Position numbers and translations under genes: made by a program. The notes beneath the pieces are model-generated. The model did no database searches. It was not told where the DNA came from and saw nothing but the letters and a program-made list of their open reading frames with translations. From Sulfurimonas sp. (GTDB lineage Bacteria; Campylobacterota; Campylobacteria; Campylobacterales; Sulfurimonadaceae), in contig NZ_JALXBK010000024.1 of the NCBI RefSeq assembly GCF_026991475.1, forward strand, positions 1 to 64,000: a stretch of DNA of 64,000 nt, read 5' to 3'. Of the stretch, positions 47,778 to 54,474 are shown piece after piece. Within the stretch, counting starts at the first letter, position 1; each line of letters starts with the position of its first letter.

Positions 47778-50291
47778 TTATTTTTTACTGTTATATAATG
47801 ATTTGTAAATGTTTTCGACATTATTGCATATTTTGTTTTGTTTTTCTATTAAAAAACTATCGCGTACCTTATATTTACTGGAATGAATTTTTGCAGTAAT
47901 AACATTAATTTGTAACTCTTCGAGCTGATGCATAATATAGGCTAGTAGCCCTGTCTGATTAGAGGTGTTAATGTTGAGTTCAGCATGTGTAAGGGAGTGT
48001 TCGCAATCAAGTGTAATCTCCTCTTTTTTAATGTTTACTGATTTTAGTGGTACATCTTTTTGCATATCAAAAGCATTGTCTATAATGTCTTGAACTTCCA
48101 CTAAAACATTCTTATCAACATTTTGAATAAATTCAATTTTGAAATATTTTACCCCGTCAAAAAGGGTGAAAATTTCCATAGAAGCGACTTGTAAATGCGC
48201 AAGGGTTGCTAGTAAATAGCCAATGTTAAGCGGAATTTTTCGTAAAATTTCTATGCTTAAAGAGCCTTCATTTTTGAGACTAAAACTGTACTCTTTTGTC
48301 TCTCTTGCCAGCTTAGCGATGTGTATAATATCTTGAGGTGTGTGTTTAAAGAAGAAGAGGTTTGACTCTATTGAGAGTAGCTTCTTTTGCAGGAGAGATG
48401 GAAGCTCTTTGAACTCTTGTGCATTTTTAACACGAGACTCAATAATAACCCTTTTTCTCGCATCCGTTATTCTATTTTTGTTCTGTGCAATTTCTAGTGC
48501 ATTTGTATAAAGGTCAAAAAGAAGTTTGGAGTTAAAAGAGTTGTAAACATCGCCACCAACACCACTGATGTCAGCATATGTGAGTAAATAGAGGAGTTGT
48601 AGATTTTTTGCATCTTCTATTTTAGACATAAATTTATAGAGTGTTTTTTCATTATGTATATTTTCTTTAAAGGCGACATTGCTCATTAAAATATGGTGTT
48701 TTACTAAGGTTATAGCACGCTTAGTGAGTTCTTCACTAAGTTTAATGTGTTTAATAAACTGTAGTAGTAGTTTTGCACCTACTTCACTATGGTCTTGTTT
48801 CCTTCCTTTTCCAGTGTCATGGAAAAAAACAACGATTTTGATGAGCAGTTTTTCATCTGCGTTTAGTTCATCAAAGAGTGTTTGGAGTTGTTTCTCTTTT
48901 ATATTTTCTAGTGCTTCAACACACTTGATAGAGTGTACATCTACAGGATAGTGGTGGTAACCATCAAATTGTGGAAGGTGCATCACTTTTTTGAAATTTG
49001 GAAATAGTTCAGCAAGTACCCCTGCATCATAAAATAGTTTTAAAAAGGGTGCAATATTGCGTTTTGTAAAGAGTTGTTTTATAAGTATATATGTGTCTGC
49101 CTGAAGAGGATGTGATATTTTTGCACGGGAAAATTGGTATAAAAAACCAGCATCAAATTTGTACTTTTTATCTTCTATTTTAATAAGAAGTTTTAGTAAG
49201 GAGTTGATGTTTTGTATAGGAAGATGAAAAGAAGCATAGAGTCTTGCATTGTACTCATAAAAGCCTTTTTGTATTCTACTCTTTCTAAACGCAGCGATGT
49301 GTTGAGCATCATATATGTAAGGGCGTACCATTTTTTTGACAAATATTTGCACAAAGTTATTTATTTGCCACTGTGCTTCTAATACTTTTGTAGCAAGTTT
49401 TGTCTGCTCTTTAAATCCTAAAAGAGTACTGACTTCCGGAATGTATTGTAGTAGGAGTCTGTCCTCTTGTTTTCCTGTGATGAGATGCAGAGCACTTCTG
49501 ACTCTGTAGAGTAGTTCTAGTGCCATACGATACTCTTTATACTCTTCATCTGAAAAAACAGTACCACTGAGCTCTTTTGTGCTGTCAATTCCATAAATAG
49601 TTTTTGCCACCCAAAAAATGAGGTGAGAATCTCGAAGTCCTCCGACACTCTCTTTAATGTTTGGCTGCATAGAGCTAGGATACTTTTTACGTCTTACCTG
49701 TGCCTCTTCAATTTTAGCTATTAAAAACTTTTTTTGATTGTGAAGTCTTATTTTGTTGAGTATATTTTGTGTAGCGTGCCAAACAAAAGGAGAACCCGTA
49801 ATCAAGCGTGATTCCATAAGGGATGTTTTGATGGTTATATCTTCTGTGCTTGCCTTAAATAAATCGCTTACTTCATGAACACGATGTCCTAGTTTCATAC
49901 CCGCATCAAGCGCAAGATAGAAGAGCTTTTCTATGATTAGTTGCGTGTTATAGCCATCTACCTCTTCATAAACGATGAGCAGGTCAATGTCACTATGAAC
50001 ACTCAACTGTTCACGTCCATAGCTGCCAAGCGCAACAATGGCTATGGGAATAGAACTACGCATAGGTAAAAAGTTACCAAAAGTTCTACGCAAGACTGTT
50101 TTGTACATTAAACTGATGATAGAGTCGAGTTTTTTTGTATGACGCACTAAAAAATCTTTGCCTTGATTTTTTTCAAAAAGTTGAGGAAGGGAGTCTTTGT
50201 ACTCTTTTATATACTGTTTAAAAAGTTTTGAGAGTTCAAAATCAGAGCCATTTTTTTCTATAATATTTTCTATCTCTAGTAATAAATTCAT
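47778..50291 (-). CDS. glnD: PII uridylyltransferase/uridylyl-removing enzyme
   Basis: About 837 residues. It controls PII proteins in response to glutamine. Order: nucleotidyltransferase domain (ALGSYGREQLSVHSDIDLLIVYE, so GSX10DxD), GlnE-like linker, HD domain (VVFFHDTGKGRKQDHSEVGA), and C-terminal ACT repeats. I prefer ATG 50291 (MNLLLEIENII) over 50333, whose extra 14 residues are not family-like. It forms a pair with glmS, linking nitrogen status and amino-sugar supply; gdhA is also in the window. Confidence 0.93.
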   Translation of the reverse strand: MNLLLEIENIIEKNGSDFELSKLFKQYIKEYKDSLPQLFEKNQGKDFLVRHTKKLDSIISLMYKTVLRRTFGNFLPMRSSIPIAIVALGSYGREQLSVHSDIDLLIVYEEVDGYNTQLIIEKLFYLALDAGMKLGHRVHEVSDLFKASTEDITIKTSLMESRLITGSPFVWHATQNILNKIRLHNQKKFLIAKIEEAQVRRKKYPSSMQPNIKESVGGLRDSHLIFWVAKTIYGIDSTKELSGTVFSDEEYKEYRMALELLYRVRSALHLITGKQEDRLLLQYIPEVSTLLGFKEQTKLATKVLEAQWQINNFVQIFVKKMVRPYIYDAQHIAAFRKSRIQKGFYEYNARLYASFHLPIQNINSLLKLLIKIEDKKYKFDAGFLYQFSRAKISHPLQADTYILIKQLFTKRNIAPFLKLFYDAGVLAELFPNFKKVMHLPQFDGYHHYPVDVHSIKCVEALENIKEKQLQTLFDELNADEKLLIKIVVFFHDTGKGRKQDHSEVGAKLLLQFIKHIKLSEELTKRAITLVKHHILMSNVAFKENIHNEKTLYKFMSKIEDAKNLQLLYLLTYADISGVGGDVYNSFNSKLLFDLYTNALEIAQNKNRITDARKRVIIESRVKNAQEFKELPSLLQKKLLSIESNLFFFKHTPQDIIHIAKLARETKEYSFSLKNEGSLSIEILRKIPLNIGYLLATLAHLQVASMEIFTLFDGVKYFKIEFIQNVDKNVLVEVQDIIDNAFDMQKDVPLKSVNIKKEEITLDCEHSLTHAELNINTSNQTGLLAYIMHQLEELQINVITAKIHSSKYKVRDSFLIEKQNKICNNVENIYKSLYNSKK

Positions 50292-50391
50292 AGTTTTTAT
50301 CTTATTTTTTTGTTTATTATACAGTAGTAACATAAATTTGATATAATCGCAGGCTCGAACTATTAAAATGATTTTATAAGATGGATTTATA

Positions 50392-50682
50392 ATGACAATA
50401 ACAAAGAGTGTAACCTTTATAGCAAAAGAGGGGCATGAAGAAAAAATGAAAGAGTTGCTTAGTGCAATGGTAGCACCAAGTAAGGCAGAACGTGGGTGTC
50501 TTTTTTATGAGATTTTTCAGTATGAAAATGAGAGAAGAAGATTTATGGCAGTAGAGACTTGGGAAGATGAAGCGGCACTCAATGGGCATAAAAACTCTGC
50601 ACATTACGCTGTGTATAAATCATTTTATGAGCCATACTGTGAAGAGAAATATACAGATGAACTAGAAGTATTGGGGGAGTAA
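50392..50682 (+). CDS. ABM-fold monooxygenase/isomerase-like protein (YgiN/LsrG type)
   Basis: A 96-residue dimeric alpha-beta barrel protein (antibiotic biosynthesis monooxygenase fold): VTFIAKEGHEEKMKELLSAM, ERGCLFYEIFQYEN and HKNSAHYAVYK. Members include quinol monooxygenases and LsrG, the phospho-AI-2 isomerase. The family alone does not decide the function, but the next two genes are an aldolase and an LsrK-like AI-2 kinase, so an LsrG-like role is possible. The stop overlaps the next start by one base (TAATG). Confidence 0.75.
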   Translation: MTITKSVTFIAKEGHEEKMKELLSAMVAPSKAERGCLFYEIFQYENERRRFMAVETWEDEAALNGHKNSAHYAVYKSFYEPYCEEKYTDELEVLGE

Positions 50683-51857
50683 TGGATAATTTATGGAGTA
50701 ATAAAGAAGCGGGGAAATGTAAGAGTAATTTGGACTTGAGAGTCTATACATCAAATCTTTTGGGGGCAAATGATGAGTTGGTGCTTCATGGGGGAGGCAA
50801 TACATCTGTAAAAGGGGATATAGATGGTATTGATATTTTACATGTGAAGGGGAGCGGATGGAATCTTGCCGACATCAAGGCTGAGGGCTTTGCTCCTGTG
50901 CGTTTGGATGCGCTTTTAGAGATGGCAAAGCAAGAGTCTCTGCGTGATACTGAAATGGTGCAAGGACAAAAAGAGGCGATGATGAGAACATCTGCGCCAA
51001 ATCCTTCAGTAGAAGCAATACTTCACGCTATTATTCCTTACAAATTTGTGGATCATACACATGCTGATGCTATTGTTACCATCTCCAACGCAGTAAGTGG
51101 CAAAGGAAATATTGCAAAGCTTTATCCTAACTTTTTAATAGTAGATTATGTGATGCCGGGCTTTGATTTGGCGCACAGAGTGTATGAACTTACGAAAGAG
51201 AAGAACTGGGATGAGATCGAGGGCATAATTTTGCATAATCACGGTATTTTTACCTTTGCAAATGATGCAAAAGAGTCTTACACAAAAATGATAGATGCAG
51301 TAACAAAAGCGGAGCAGTTTTTGGATGAGAATGCAACAGTGGAAATAGTGCATAAATATGTGCACAGTGATTGTGACATCGGGCGTGTTGTCAAGACTTT
51401 GAGTGAGTATAAGGGACATGATGTGCACATTGCAATAAATCAGACGCCTTTAGCAGCTTTTTATGCTTCTCATGAAAATTTAAGAGAGTTCGCCTCTCGC
51501 GGTGTTTTGACACCGGAGCATATCATTAGAACAAAAAGAGTACCGCTTATTATGGAAGATACAGATCTCATAGGTGGACTTGATAGATATGTAGCAGAGT
51601 ATAAAGAGTACTTTAATAAGTATGCAACTGATGAGGTGATGCTCAATCCTGCACCCAACTATATGATTATTAAAAATCTTGCAGTGGTTTGTTTTGGGCG
51701 TTCTCGTGAGGAGGCGAAGGTGATTTATGACATTGTTGAGCATACAATGTTGGCGGTACTTCGTGCAGATAAACTTGGTGGTTATAAAAGTATAAGTGAG
51801 AAAGAGAGTTTTGCAATGGAGTACTGGGAGCTAGAGCAGGCGAAATTGAAAAAGTAA
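50682..51857 (+). CDS. Class II aldolase (rhamnulose-1-phosphate aldolase-type domain)
   Basis: A 391-residue zinc aldolase of the class II/adducin family. It resembles the N-terminal aldolase part of bifunctional rhamnulose-phosphate aldolase/dehydrogenases (SNLLGANDELVLHGGGNTSVK, VKGSGWNLADI, EGFAPVRLD) but lacks the dehydrogenase part. The metal site includes HTHADAI and ILHNHGIFTF. It would split a phosphorylated ketose or diketone into DHAP and a small aldehyde or acid. It is coupled by one-base overlaps to the ABM gene upstream and the kinase downstream. Substrate is not predictable; phospho-DPD, 5-deoxyribulose-1-P or rhamnulose-1-P are candidates. Confidence 0.82.
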   Translation: MDNLWSNKEAGKCKSNLDLRVYTSNLLGANDELVLHGGGNTSVKGDIDGIDILHVKGSGWNLADIKAEGFAPVRLDALLEMAKQESLRDTEMVQGQKEAMMRTSAPNPSVEAILHAIIPYKFVDHTHADAIVTISNAVSGKGNIAKLYPNFLIVDYVMPGFDLAHRVYELTKEKNWDEIEGIILHNHGIFTFANDAKESYTKMIDAVTKAEQFLDENATVEIVHKYVHSDCDIGRVVKTLSEYKGHDVHIAINQTPLAAFYASHENLREFASRGVLTPEHIIRTKRVPLIMEDTDLIGGLDRYVAEYKEYFNKYATDEVMLNPAPNYMIIKNLAVVCFGRSREEAKVIYDIVEHTMLAVLRADKLGGYKSISEKESFAMEYWELEQAKLKK

Positions 51858-53428
51858 TGGGAAAAAAAGAGTACCTACTGGCAATAGATGCAGGCACTGG
51901 CAGCGTGCGTGCTGTGATTTTCGATACAAAGGGCAATCAAATTGCCGTAGGACAAAATGAGTGGACACATCTTGAAGAAGAGGGTGTTGCAAACTCTATG
52001 CGTTTTGATTATGAGCAAAATTGGCTGCTTGTGTGTGATGCAATTCACTCAGCCATAAACGCAGCAAATGTAAACGCAGCAGATATTTTGGCACTCAGCG
52101 CTACGAGTATGCGTGAGGGAATCGTCCTTTATGACCGTGAGGGCAAAGAGCTGTGGGCAGTTGCAAATGTAGATGCAAGAGCTTCAGAGGAAGTGAAGTA
52201 TTTAAAAGAGCATTTTGATGGTTTGGAAGAGGAATTTTATGCACTCTCAGGACAGACCTTTGCACTTGGTGCACTGCCGCGACTGCTATGGTTAAAAAAT
52301 AACCGACCAGACATTTATGAAAAAGTAGCAAGAATATCTATGATAGGTGACTGGATACTTGCTAAACTGTGTGGCGTGATAGCGAGTGACCCGAGTAATG
52401 GCGGAACGACAGGCGTGTTTTCTCTCTCTAAACGCAGATGGGTAAGTGAGATGGCAAGAGAAGTCGGACTCAAAGATGATATTTTTCCTGAAGTGTTAGA
52501 GGTAGGCACACCTATGGCAAAGGTAAGCCAAAAATCTGCACAAGAGAGTGGACTCTCATCAGAAACACTTGTTGTAATGGGTGGCGGTGATGTACAGCTT
52601 GGTTCTGCAGGACTTGGTGTAGTTGAAGCAGGGCAGGTGGCTGTACTTGGCGGCTCTTTTTGGCAGCAGGTGGTAAATATTCCCTCCCAAACACAGCCAC
52701 CCAAAGATATGAGCGTGAGGGTCAATCCTCATGTCATTGCAGGACTCTCTCAGGCTGAGGGTATTACCTTTTTTAGCGGACTTGTGATGCGCTGGTTTCG
52801 TGATGCTTTTTGTGAACTTGAAAAAGAAGAAGCTGCCAAACGCAGCTGTGATGTCTATGAGATACTGGAAGAAAAAGCAGCAAAAGTTCCTGTGGGTTCG
52901 TACGAAATACTTCCGATATTTTCAGATGTGATGCGTTACTCAAAATGGTACCACGCGGCACCTAGCTTTTTAAACCTCTCTCTAAACGCAGCAGAGTGTA
53001 ACCGTGCTTCAATGTTTCGCAGTTTAGAAGAAAACGCAGCAATAGTCTCAAGCCTTAACTTAGAAAAAATAGAAGCCTTTAGCAATGTAAAGATAGAGAG
53101 TATAGTATTCGCCGGTGGAGCGAGTAAAGGTGCTTTGTGGTCACAGATACTTAGTGATGTAAGCGGATACAGTGTGAAAATTCCAAAAGTACGTGAAGCA
53201 ACGGCACTTGGTGCTGCAATGGCTGCTGGAGTAGGGTGTGGCGTTTATGATAATCTCGTAAACGCAGCCAAAGAGCTTGTGGTGTGGGAGAAAACATACA
53301 AGCCAAATATGGAGAATAAAAAGATATATGACAGATTAAAAATTAAGTGGCAAAAGGCTTATGAAGCACAATTAAAGTTGGTTGATGATAATATCACGAC
53401 TTCAATGTGGAAAGCTCCCGGACTATAA
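51857..53428 (+). CDS. lsrK: LsrK-like autoinducer-2 kinase (FGGY family)
   Basis: A 523-residue FGGY kinase very close to E. coli LsrK by eye: LAIDAGTGSVRAVIFDTKGN, SATSMREGIVLYD, NVDARASEEV, GGGDVQLGSAGLGVV, LGGSFWQQVVNIP, YHAAPSFLNLS and the identical ending W-K-A-P-G-L. LsrK phosphorylates the quorum signal AI-2 (DPD) in the cytosol. No lsrACDB transporter or lsrR is seen here, so the source of substrate is unclear. It contains seven copies of the AAACGCAG octamer, the densest cluster in the window. It precedes mqnE by 8 bases. Rhamnulokinase or deoxyribulokinase activity remains possible. Confidence 0.85.
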   Translation: MGKKEYLLAIDAGTGSVRAVIFDTKGNQIAVGQNEWTHLEEEGVANSMRFDYEQNWLLVCDAIHSAINAANVNAADILALSATSMREGIVLYDREGKELWAVANVDARASEEVKYLKEHFDGLEEEFYALSGQTFALGALPRLLWLKNNRPDIYEKVARISMIGDWILAKLCGVIASDPSNGGTTGVFSLSKRRWVSEMAREVGLKDDIFPEVLEVGTPMAKVSQKSAQESGLSSETLVVMGGGDVQLGSAGLGVVEAGQVAVLGGSFWQQVVNIPSQTQPPKDMSVRVNPHVIAGLSQAEGITFFSGLVMRWFRDAFCELEKEEAAKRSCDVYEILEEKAAKVPVGSYEILPIFSDVMRYSKWYHAAPSFLNLSLNAAECNRASMFRSLEENAAIVSSLNLEKIEAFSNVKIESIVFAGGASKGALWSQILSDVSGYSVKIPKVREATALGAAMAAGVGCGVYDNLVNAAKELVVWEKTYKPNMENKKIYDRLKIKWQKAYEAQLKLVDDNITTSMWKAPGL

Positions 53429-53436
53429 GGTAAAAA

Positions 53437-54474
53437 ATGAAAAATAGAATAAATTTTGAAGATGCGCTAAAACTTTATGAAAAAGATATATTTGAACTTG
53501 GCACTTTAGCTGATGCAAAGCGTCAAGAACTTCACGGTAAAAAGACCTACTTTAACATCAATCGTCACATTAATCCTACGAATATTTGTGCGGATGTATG
53601 TAAATTTTGTGCTTACTCGGCAAATAGGAAAAATCCAAATCCCTACACGATGAGTCATGAAGAGATTTTAGAAATTGTAAAAGAGGTGGACTCTCACGGT
53701 GCAAAAGAGATACACATCGTCTCTGCGCACAATCCTAATGTACCCATTGAGTGGTATCTTGGAATATTTAAGAAGATAAAAGATGCATACCCTCATCTGC
53801 ATATAAAAGCGCTGACCGCTGCTGAGGTTGATTTTCTTTCGCGTCATCATGGGCTCACTTATGATGAGGTACTTGACTTGATGGTGGAAAATGGTGTAGA
53901 CTCTATGCCTGGTGGTGGTGCTGAGATATTTGATGAGAAGGTACGTGACTTTATATGTAAAGGAAAAGTGACTTCTGATCAGTGGTTTGAAATACATAGA
54001 AAATGGCATGAACGCGGAAAAAAATCAAATGTTACAATGCTCTTTGGTCACATCGAATCACGTGAGAATCGCATAGACCATATGATGCGTATCCGTGATT
54101 TGCAAGATAAAACAGGCGGGTTTAACTGTTTCATACCGCTTGTCTATCAGACAGAAAATAACTACCTCAAAATCGACAAACCTGTCACTGCAAATGAGAT
54201 TTTAAAAACAATGGCAATTTCACGACTTGTGCTTGATAATGTACCAAACTTAAAAGCTTACTGGGTAACTTCTACTGTAAACCTTGCCCTTGTCGCTCAA
54301 GAGTTCGGTGCAAATGACCTTGATGGAACGATAGAAAAAGAGTCTATCAACTCCGCTGCTGGTGCAAAAAGTGCCAATGGTGTGCAGCTTGAAGATTTTA
54401 CGGCACTTATTCGTAACAGCGGCTTTATTCCAGTAGAGCGTGACAGCCTTTACAATGAGATAAAGGTCTGGTAG
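53437..54474 (+). CDS. mqnE: Aminofutalosine synthase (futalosine menaquinone pathway)
   Basis: A 345-residue radical SAM enzyme. The cluster motif is C51-x3-C55-x2-C58 in RHINPTNICADVCKFCAYS, the MqnE signature, followed by GGGAEIFDEKVRDFIC and YWVTSTVNLALVAQEFGANDLDGT. It joins the adenosyl radical to carboxyvinyl-benzoate to make aminofutalosine, the route to menaquinone in Campylobacterota. The neighbours (kinase, aldolase) are not known menaquinone genes. MqnE consumes SAM without releasing methionine and deoxyadenosine in the usual way. Confidence 0.93.
   Translation: MKNRINFEDALKLYEKDIFELGTLADAKRQELHGKKTYFNINRHINPTNICADVCKFCAYSANRKNPNPYTMSHEEILEIVKEVDSHGAKEIHIVSAHNPNVPIEWYLGIFKKIKDAYPHLHIKALTAAEVDFLSRHHGLTYDEVLDLMVENGVDSMPGGGAEIFDEKVRDFICKGKVTSDQWFEIHRKWHERGKKSNVTMLFGHIESRENRIDHMMRIRDLQDKTGGFNCFIPLVYQTENNYLKIDKPVTANEILKTMAISRLVLDNVPNLKAYWVTSTVNLALVAQEFGANDLDGTIEKESINSAAGAKSANGVQLEDFTALIRNSGFIPVERDSLYNEIKVW

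Follow-up and report, generated by a model that had tools for sequence, protein, structure and literature searches.

A three-gene operon of Sulfurimonas sp., found in a window of 64,000 nucleotides (the whole stretch of DNA that was analysed), very probably serves to process autoinducer-2 (AI-2) that the cell's own LuxS has produced; a class II aldolase would act in place of LsrF, and the operon would work without an importer. The observations behind this proposal are the identities of the genes, their conserved catalytic residues, their co-inheritance and their synteny, both with luxS and with genes for lsr transport. A different way of disposing of AI-2 had been suggested in the first-pass annotation of this DNA, and that suggestion is now supported by the co-inheritance of the genes with a true LsrK, by their adjacency to luxS in genus g26, and by the presence of the aldolase in alphaproteobacterial lsr loci that lack LsrF.

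Results

Organisation of the locus and identity of its proteins

The three genes of the trio lie on the forward strand, and the coordinates of their open reading frames confirm the one-base overlaps noted in the first-pass annotation, with the motif TAATG at both joints (ABM/aldolase and aldolase/LsrK). The features of the locus are as follows:

50392–50682, + strand: ABM-fold protein, 96 aa, proposed phospho-AI-2 isomerase or protector (PF03992, 57 bits)
50682–51857, + strand: class II aldolase, 391 aa, proposed LsrF replacement cleaving phospho-HPD (PF00596, 72 bits)
51857–53428, + strand: autoinducer-2 kinase LsrK, 523 aa (NF008187, 867.4 bits, cut-off 528)
53437–54474, + strand: mqnE, aminofutalosine synthase, a neighbour judged to lie outside the function (TIGR03700, 486 bits, cut-off 435)
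47778–50333, − strand: glnD, divergent upstream neighbour marking a conserved Sulfurimonas slot (TIGR01693, 398.6 bits, below cut-off)
50318–50347, + strand: weak promoter-like site (TATACA, 18 nt, TATAAT, preceded by TG)

A gap of 8 bp separates lsrK from mqnE, and the glnD gene order upstream of the trio is shared with relatives. The promoter-like site overlaps both the start of the divergent glnD and the gap 5′ of the ABM gene; in the region upstream of that gene, such sites are no commoner than in its shuffled versions. No LsrR gene was seen beside the trio.

By family, the kinase is a true LsrK and is predicted to phosphorylate DPD. It exceeds the LsrK equivalog cut-off (867 versus 528 bits) and shares 56% identity with E. 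coli LsrK across 521 aa, which bears out its earlier description as a close LsrK homologue, while the rhamnulokinase profile gives 51 bits against a cut-off of 528 and the xylulokinase profile 194 against 380. The positions named around the substrate and ATP sites of the E. coli enzyme (T21, S23, F312, R322, F325 and T456, E. coli numbering; PMC8028047) are conserved in the trio kinase in a six-sequence alignment. Across 298 Campylobacterota genomes, LsrK scores are bimodal, 35 genomes falling at 732–888 bits and the next FGGY kinase at 225 bits. LsrK had no match among the viral contigs scanned.

The second protein corresponds to the aldolase half of a PRK08324-type aldolase/SDR. It scores 437 bits with NF006196, of the 831 bits needed for a full-length member, and stops after the aldolase half, so that the SDR half is absent; the homology to RhaD-type bifunctional enzymes (PRK08324, TIGR02632) extends over the whole aldolase half, with a TIGR02632 score of 207 bits. 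Catalytic Glu111, His125, His127 and His187 and the GGGNTS loop at 37–42 are invariant in the alignment, providing the general base (Glu111), three metal-ligand histidines and the phosphate-binding loop of a class II aldolase, and these strict motifs are intact in 91 of 96 homologues. In the earlier term 'zinc aldolase', zinc itself was an assumption; DrdA, the aldolase of the DHAP shunt, prefers Mn (PMC6079011). A sequence-profile search for a full-length relative of solved structure yielded just 3m4r, which covers the N-terminal domain of a homologue from an archaeon. An AlphaFold2 (AF2) model (pLDDT 93.6) matches an archaeal homologue, fuculose-phosphate aldolases (FucA) and DrdA (6btd, 6btg). 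In the aldolase tree, SDR-fused and stand-alone types fall apart.

The ABM protein is LsrG-like in its predicted fold only, and the name LsrG is not appropriate for it. Its AF2 model (pLDDT 96.9) finds E. coli LsrG (3qmq) at rank 10 with a TM score of 0.91, PA3566 being the best structural match and many other ABM proteins matching as well. With the LsrG family NF007791 the protein scores 30.9 bits, under the cut-off of 135, and its identity to E. coli LsrG is 30% over 69 aa. The LsrG-like fold first ascribed to it stands, as a resemblance of fold alone.

Genome content of the host

The content of the host genome was assessed by targeted searches, with LsrB as the representative of an importer. 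LsrB had no match genome-wide, in agreement with the earlier view of a trio without Lsr transport genes. The earlier remark that an aldolase stands where LsrF would be fits the genome-wide search for an LsrF orthologue, which yielded at best a hit of 22.9 bits with 30% identity over about half of the protein. There was no match to TIGR00512 (MtnA). The host does carry luxS, on a different contig from the trio, and luxS was found in 56 of 60 genomes searched.

Co-inheritance of the trio in Campylobacterota

The three genes are co-inherited across the phylum, and their arrangement is thus non-random. Of 298 Campylobacterota genomes, each at least 90% complete, 35 have an LsrK above its cut-off. 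The aldolase was found in exactly these 35 and nowhere among the remaining 263, even though it lies on a different contig from lsrK in 10 of the 35; the ABM protein (at least 88 bits) was found in 34 of these genomes and in 0 of the 263 (next best 46 bits). At least six genera hold both states, the trio genes having been gained or lost together. In a second sample, made up of poorer, fragmentary assemblies of relatives, LsrK occurred without a detected aldolase in four genomes (G014, G022, G037 and G054), in three of which lsrK sits at a contig end, and the aldolase occurred without LsrK in two (G017 and G059).

The survey of the trio against luxS that the first-pass annotation had proposed gave luxS in all 35 LsrK-positive genomes, compared with 254 of 298 overall (p = 0.003, relatedness ignored); since luxS is near universal in the phylum, this count alone is weak evidence. 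MtnA was present in 14 of the 298 genomes; LsrK and the aldolase are both absent from four of these, so the aldolase tracks LsrK and not MtnA.

Gene neighbourhoods in Campylobacterota

The lsrK loci on genome contigs represent the best 80 matches, all from Campylobacterota; for other phyla, plasmid records served as the sample. The order ABM–aldolase–LsrK is repeated in several families (L117, L121, L125, L128), and among the 53 listed loci with at least 4 kb available upstream of lsrK, the aldolase was present in 43 and the ABM protein in 41. The trio genes adjoin luxS in genus g26 (L113–L115), and the same flanking genes enclose luxS in the host genome, there without the trio (L082).

Two further genes recur at these loci. 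mqnE is nearby in 35 of the 80 lsrK loci among the matches listed; it occupies the same slot without lsrK in genome G012 (L143), and trio loci of other families lack it (L117, L121, L125, L127). Its adjacency is conserved synteny, mostly of one lineage, and the mqnE neighbour, earlier taken to favour a DHAP shunt, fails as an argument for it. A second SAM synthetase gene, metK2, is found in the lsrK–mqnE locus of part of Sulfurimonas, adjoins luxS in G050 (L116), and occupies the mqnE slot in G012 (L143). A strong metK–lsrK link, which we had considered, is weakened by this last case, in which the slot is held without lsrK; metK2 therefore marks a SAM-related locus and is not strictly tied to lsrK.

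lsr loci of other bacteria

Plasmids of Sinorhizobium meliloti, Ensifer canadensis, Thalassospira marina and Alloyangia pacifica carry two-sided lsr loci. One side holds an LsrR-type regulator, lsrK and ABM/LsrG; the other consists of lsrA, lsrC, lsrD, lsrB and a class II aldolase, which fills the slot after lsrB that belongs to lsrF. No LsrF was found in these S. meliloti-type plasmid loci. The same arrangement, again with no LsrF, is seen in Roseateles XES5 (an unverified record). Three loci that carry no annotation, from Shinella zoogloeoides, Sinorhizobium sp. C101 and Tritonibacter mobilis, have LsrK, LsrG, LsrB and the aldolase in matching positions, likewise without LsrF, and in Roseicitreum a rearranged lsr locus, which also lacks LsrF, contains the aldolase and LsrG. 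Conversely, the lsr loci of E. coli, Enterobacter and Lacticaseibacillus contain LsrF and no such aldolase. A cupin gene lies 3′ of lsrK in Lacticaseibacillus; in Sulfurospirillum and others, the gene after lsrK encodes a related cupin (36% identity).

For S. meliloti, an lsr locus on pSymB had been described before (PMC2561040). Apart from the paper on the E. coli LsrF structure, no literature combining lsr, class II aldolases and rhizobia was evident to us, and earlier notice is possible. Like the trio, these alphaproteobacterial loci combine LsrK, an ABM protein and a homologous class II aldolase in the absence of LsrF. They differ in possessing LsrACDB and an LsrR-type regulator, in having an ABM protein that is a true LsrG relative (42% identity to E. 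coli), and in the sequence of the aldolase, which is 34–38% identical to that of the trio (37% for the rhizobial one). With the E. coli and Salmonella system (LsrACDB, LsrR, LsrK, LsrF, LsrG), the trio has in common an LsrK orthologue, a protein of predicted LsrG fold and a putative C–C cleaving enzyme; unlike that system, it belongs to a genome in which neither LsrB nor LsrF was found and a class II metal aldolase would replace the class I-fold CoA thiolase LsrF, its ABM protein falls under the LsrG cut-off, and its host has luxS, making AI-2 presumably endogenous. lsrB was also reported absent from the epsilon-proteobacteria examined previously (Helicobacter, Campylobacter; PMC2561040).

Fused aldolases and the DHAP shunt

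Most genomes without the aldolase next to lsrK carry an SDR-fused aldolase elsewhere, typically after an APH-type (MtnK-like) kinase and MtnA (L133–L137). An MtnK-like kinase, MtnA and an aldolase form the arrangement of the DHAP shunt (PMC6079011). In two sister Sulfurimonas loci (L183, L226), LsrK, MtnK, MtnA, the fused aldolase and metK2 are encoded on one strand. We had considered LsrK as a replacement for MtnK and dropped this idea, both being present in one operon there; LsrK is therefore no substitute for MtnK and MtnA.

The state of the SDR half follows the presence of MtnA. Its catalytic Tyr-x-x-x-Lys motif (YSVAK) is kept in the fused aldolases of all seven MtnA-positive relatives and lost in all four LsrK-positive relatives without intact MtnA (G024, G025, G026, G043), whose losses lie in the SDR half while the aldolase motifs are intact; most LsrK genomes have a stand-alone aldolase and no SDR at all. 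As the SDR is lost where LsrK stays without MtnA, this pattern suggests that the SDR processes an aldehyde formed in the 5-deoxyribose branch, whereas no aldehyde requiring it would arise in the LsrK branch.

Relative to the DHAP shunt (DrdK/MtnK, DrdI/MtnA, DrdA; PMC6079011), the trio would likewise use a class II aldolase on a 1-phosphorylated 5-deoxy C5 compound to form DHAP, as proposed here, and the shunt is joined with lsrK in one operon in some sister species. The host, however, has no MtnA, its kinase is of the FGGY type (LsrK) and not MtnK, and its aldolase is of the PRK08324 type and not the short FucA type.

Other explanations for the trio

A broader salvage function, which extends the AI-2 explanation rather than competing with it, has in our estimate an even chance of being correct: the aldolase would accept both phospho-AI-2 and 5-deoxyribulose 1-phosphate in relatives, with the AI-2 branch alone in the host. 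It is favoured by several LsrK-positive genomes in which the SDR-fused aldolase of a DHAP-shunt operon is the sole member of its family, and by the decay of the SDR half where MtnA is gone and LsrK kept; against this, the dual use is read from gene content only, and the fused and stand-alone aldolases are separate in the tree.

We consider it unlikely that the trio serves only the salvage of 5-deoxyribose or methylthioribose, in which the kinase would act on 5-deoxyribulose and the aldolase would release DHAP and acetaldehyde, clearing the radical SAM by-product 5′-deoxyadenosine. The same aldolase family does accompany MtnK (APH) and MtnA in relatives (L133–L137), LsrK, MtnK, MtnA, the aldolase and metK do share single operons (L183, L226), and the modelled fold of the trio aldolase resembles DrdA. 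Yet the host lacks MtnA, the trio includes no known aldose–ketose isomerase, the aldolase is absent from four MtnA-positive genomes, and the alphaproteobacterial lsr loci with this aldolase point to AI-2 and not to 5-deoxyribose. The salvage of 5-deoxyribose offered by the first-pass annotation thus applies to relatives that use the aldolase family with MtnK and MtnA, and not to the host genome.

Ordinary catabolism of rhamnulose, fuculose, xylulose or a similar sugar, with the trio acting as a plain FGGY kinase and class II aldolase pair, is very improbable; the aldolase half has relatives among the RhaD-type bifunctional enzymes, but the kinase lies far over the LsrK cut-off and far under those of rhamnulokinase and xylulokinase, no recurring sugar isomerase or sugar transporter stands next to lsrK in the neighbourhoods examined, and rhaA or rhaI, whose presence had been named beforehand as refuting the first-pass proposal, was not seen with the trio in them. 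A part in menaquinone (futalosine) biosynthesis, suggested by mqnE near those 35 of the 80 listed lsrK loci, is scarcely credible given that the association is mostly of one lineage, missing at four trio loci, and that mqnE keeps its slot without lsrK in G012.

Discussion

We propose the following route for AI-2 processing by the trio, the reactions and their order being predicted from gene identity, residues, co-inheritance and synteny. LuxS would generate DPD in the cytoplasm and, as no importer is recognisable, the substrate would be this DPD of the cell's own, which LsrK would phosphorylate at C5. In the known lsr pathway, LsrG converts P-DPD to P-HPD; the ABM protein would probably carry out the same isomerisation, or may shield the reactive dione. 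The class II aldolase would then split the isomerised phosphate between C2 and C3, yielding DHAP and replacing the CoA-dependent LsrF.

P-HPD would stand one two-electron oxidation above 5-deoxyribulose 1-phosphate, and the same cleavage would give DHAP and acetate in place of acetaldehyde. Because P-HPD is the oxidised counterpart of this DHAP-shunt substrate, a retro-aldol to DHAP and acetate appears the most likely outcome, and a metal-assisted retro-aldol of the hydrated methyl ketone (a hydrolytic retro-Claisen reaction) would need no CoA. We place acetate as the specific product at a little under an even chance. For E. coli LsrF, the products are reported to be DHAP and acetyl-CoA (PMC7828210), and the fate of AI-2 in bacteria lacking LsrF, for example several Clostridium, is described there as undetermined.

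More tentatively still, we suggest a CoA-independent breakdown of AI-2 to DHAP and acetate by an aldolase shared with the 5-deoxyribose branch, which would also end uptake in the Alphaproteobacteria that lack LsrF. A specific candidate enzyme is now available for the lsr systems of these bacteria, and AI-2 breakdown would be tied to the DHAP shunt through a common aldolase family. For AI-2 in Campylobacterota, our findings suggest by-product salvage rather than signal import; if this proposal is true, one type of Campylobacterota operon recycles two by-products of SAM, LuxS-derived DPD and 5-deoxyribose.

Class II aldolases in related lsr loci

In alphaproteobacterial lsr loci (L233-L236, L238, L241-L243; L-numbers denote loci from other genomes), the lsrF slot is occupied by a class II aldolase and LsrF is absent. 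Among aldolases fused to an SDR half, this half has degenerated in genomes without intact MtnA, and in one relative (G026) an MtnA remnant of 22 residues lies immediately downstream of lsrK.

Fused aldolases with decayed SDR half:
L061:2946-4553
L065:10129-12000
L131:98-1747
L138:7350-9059

Variable neighbours of the lsrK locus

In many Sulfurimonas, the lsrK-mqnE locus holds metK2, a divergent second SAM synthetase scoring ~365 bits against TIGR01034, versus ~600 for the usual enzyme; some genomes carry metK2 alone, and the Sulfurimonas genome studied here only the usual type. The combined lsrK/aldolase/metK locus encloses a gene for a NIT-PAS-HD protein, a putative c-di-GMP phosphodiesterase sensor in L065, with a 771-aa gene in the matching position of L226; the domains were read from the L065 gene only. 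Five Sulfurimonas genomes encode a membrane protein of the glycine transporter family (PF03458), a possible transporter, at their lsrK locus, in most cases directly after lsrK. The interval separating mqnE from the ABM gene frequently carries unrelated inserted genes, such as those for an AAA ATPase and a DUF3226 protein found together, a pattern like that of an insertion hot spot.

metK2: L055:3874-5073 (-); also L051, L053, L054, L061, L064, L077, L183, L226
NIT-PAS-HD protein: L065:7789-10107
PF03458 membrane protein: L057:9112-9753; also L054, L058, L059, L079
Inserts between ABM gene and mqnE: L060:8627-10107; L051:2270-4898; L052:9809-11633

A small cupin gene recurrently follows lsrK directly in several Campylobacterota families.

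Small cupin after lsrK:
L071:3473-3880
L118:9241-9615
L120:2433-2804
L072:3713-4081

The encoded protein is a relative (36% identity) of the cupin that follows lsrK in a Lacticaseibacillus lsr operon, and is possibly an alternative phospho-AI-2 isomerase.
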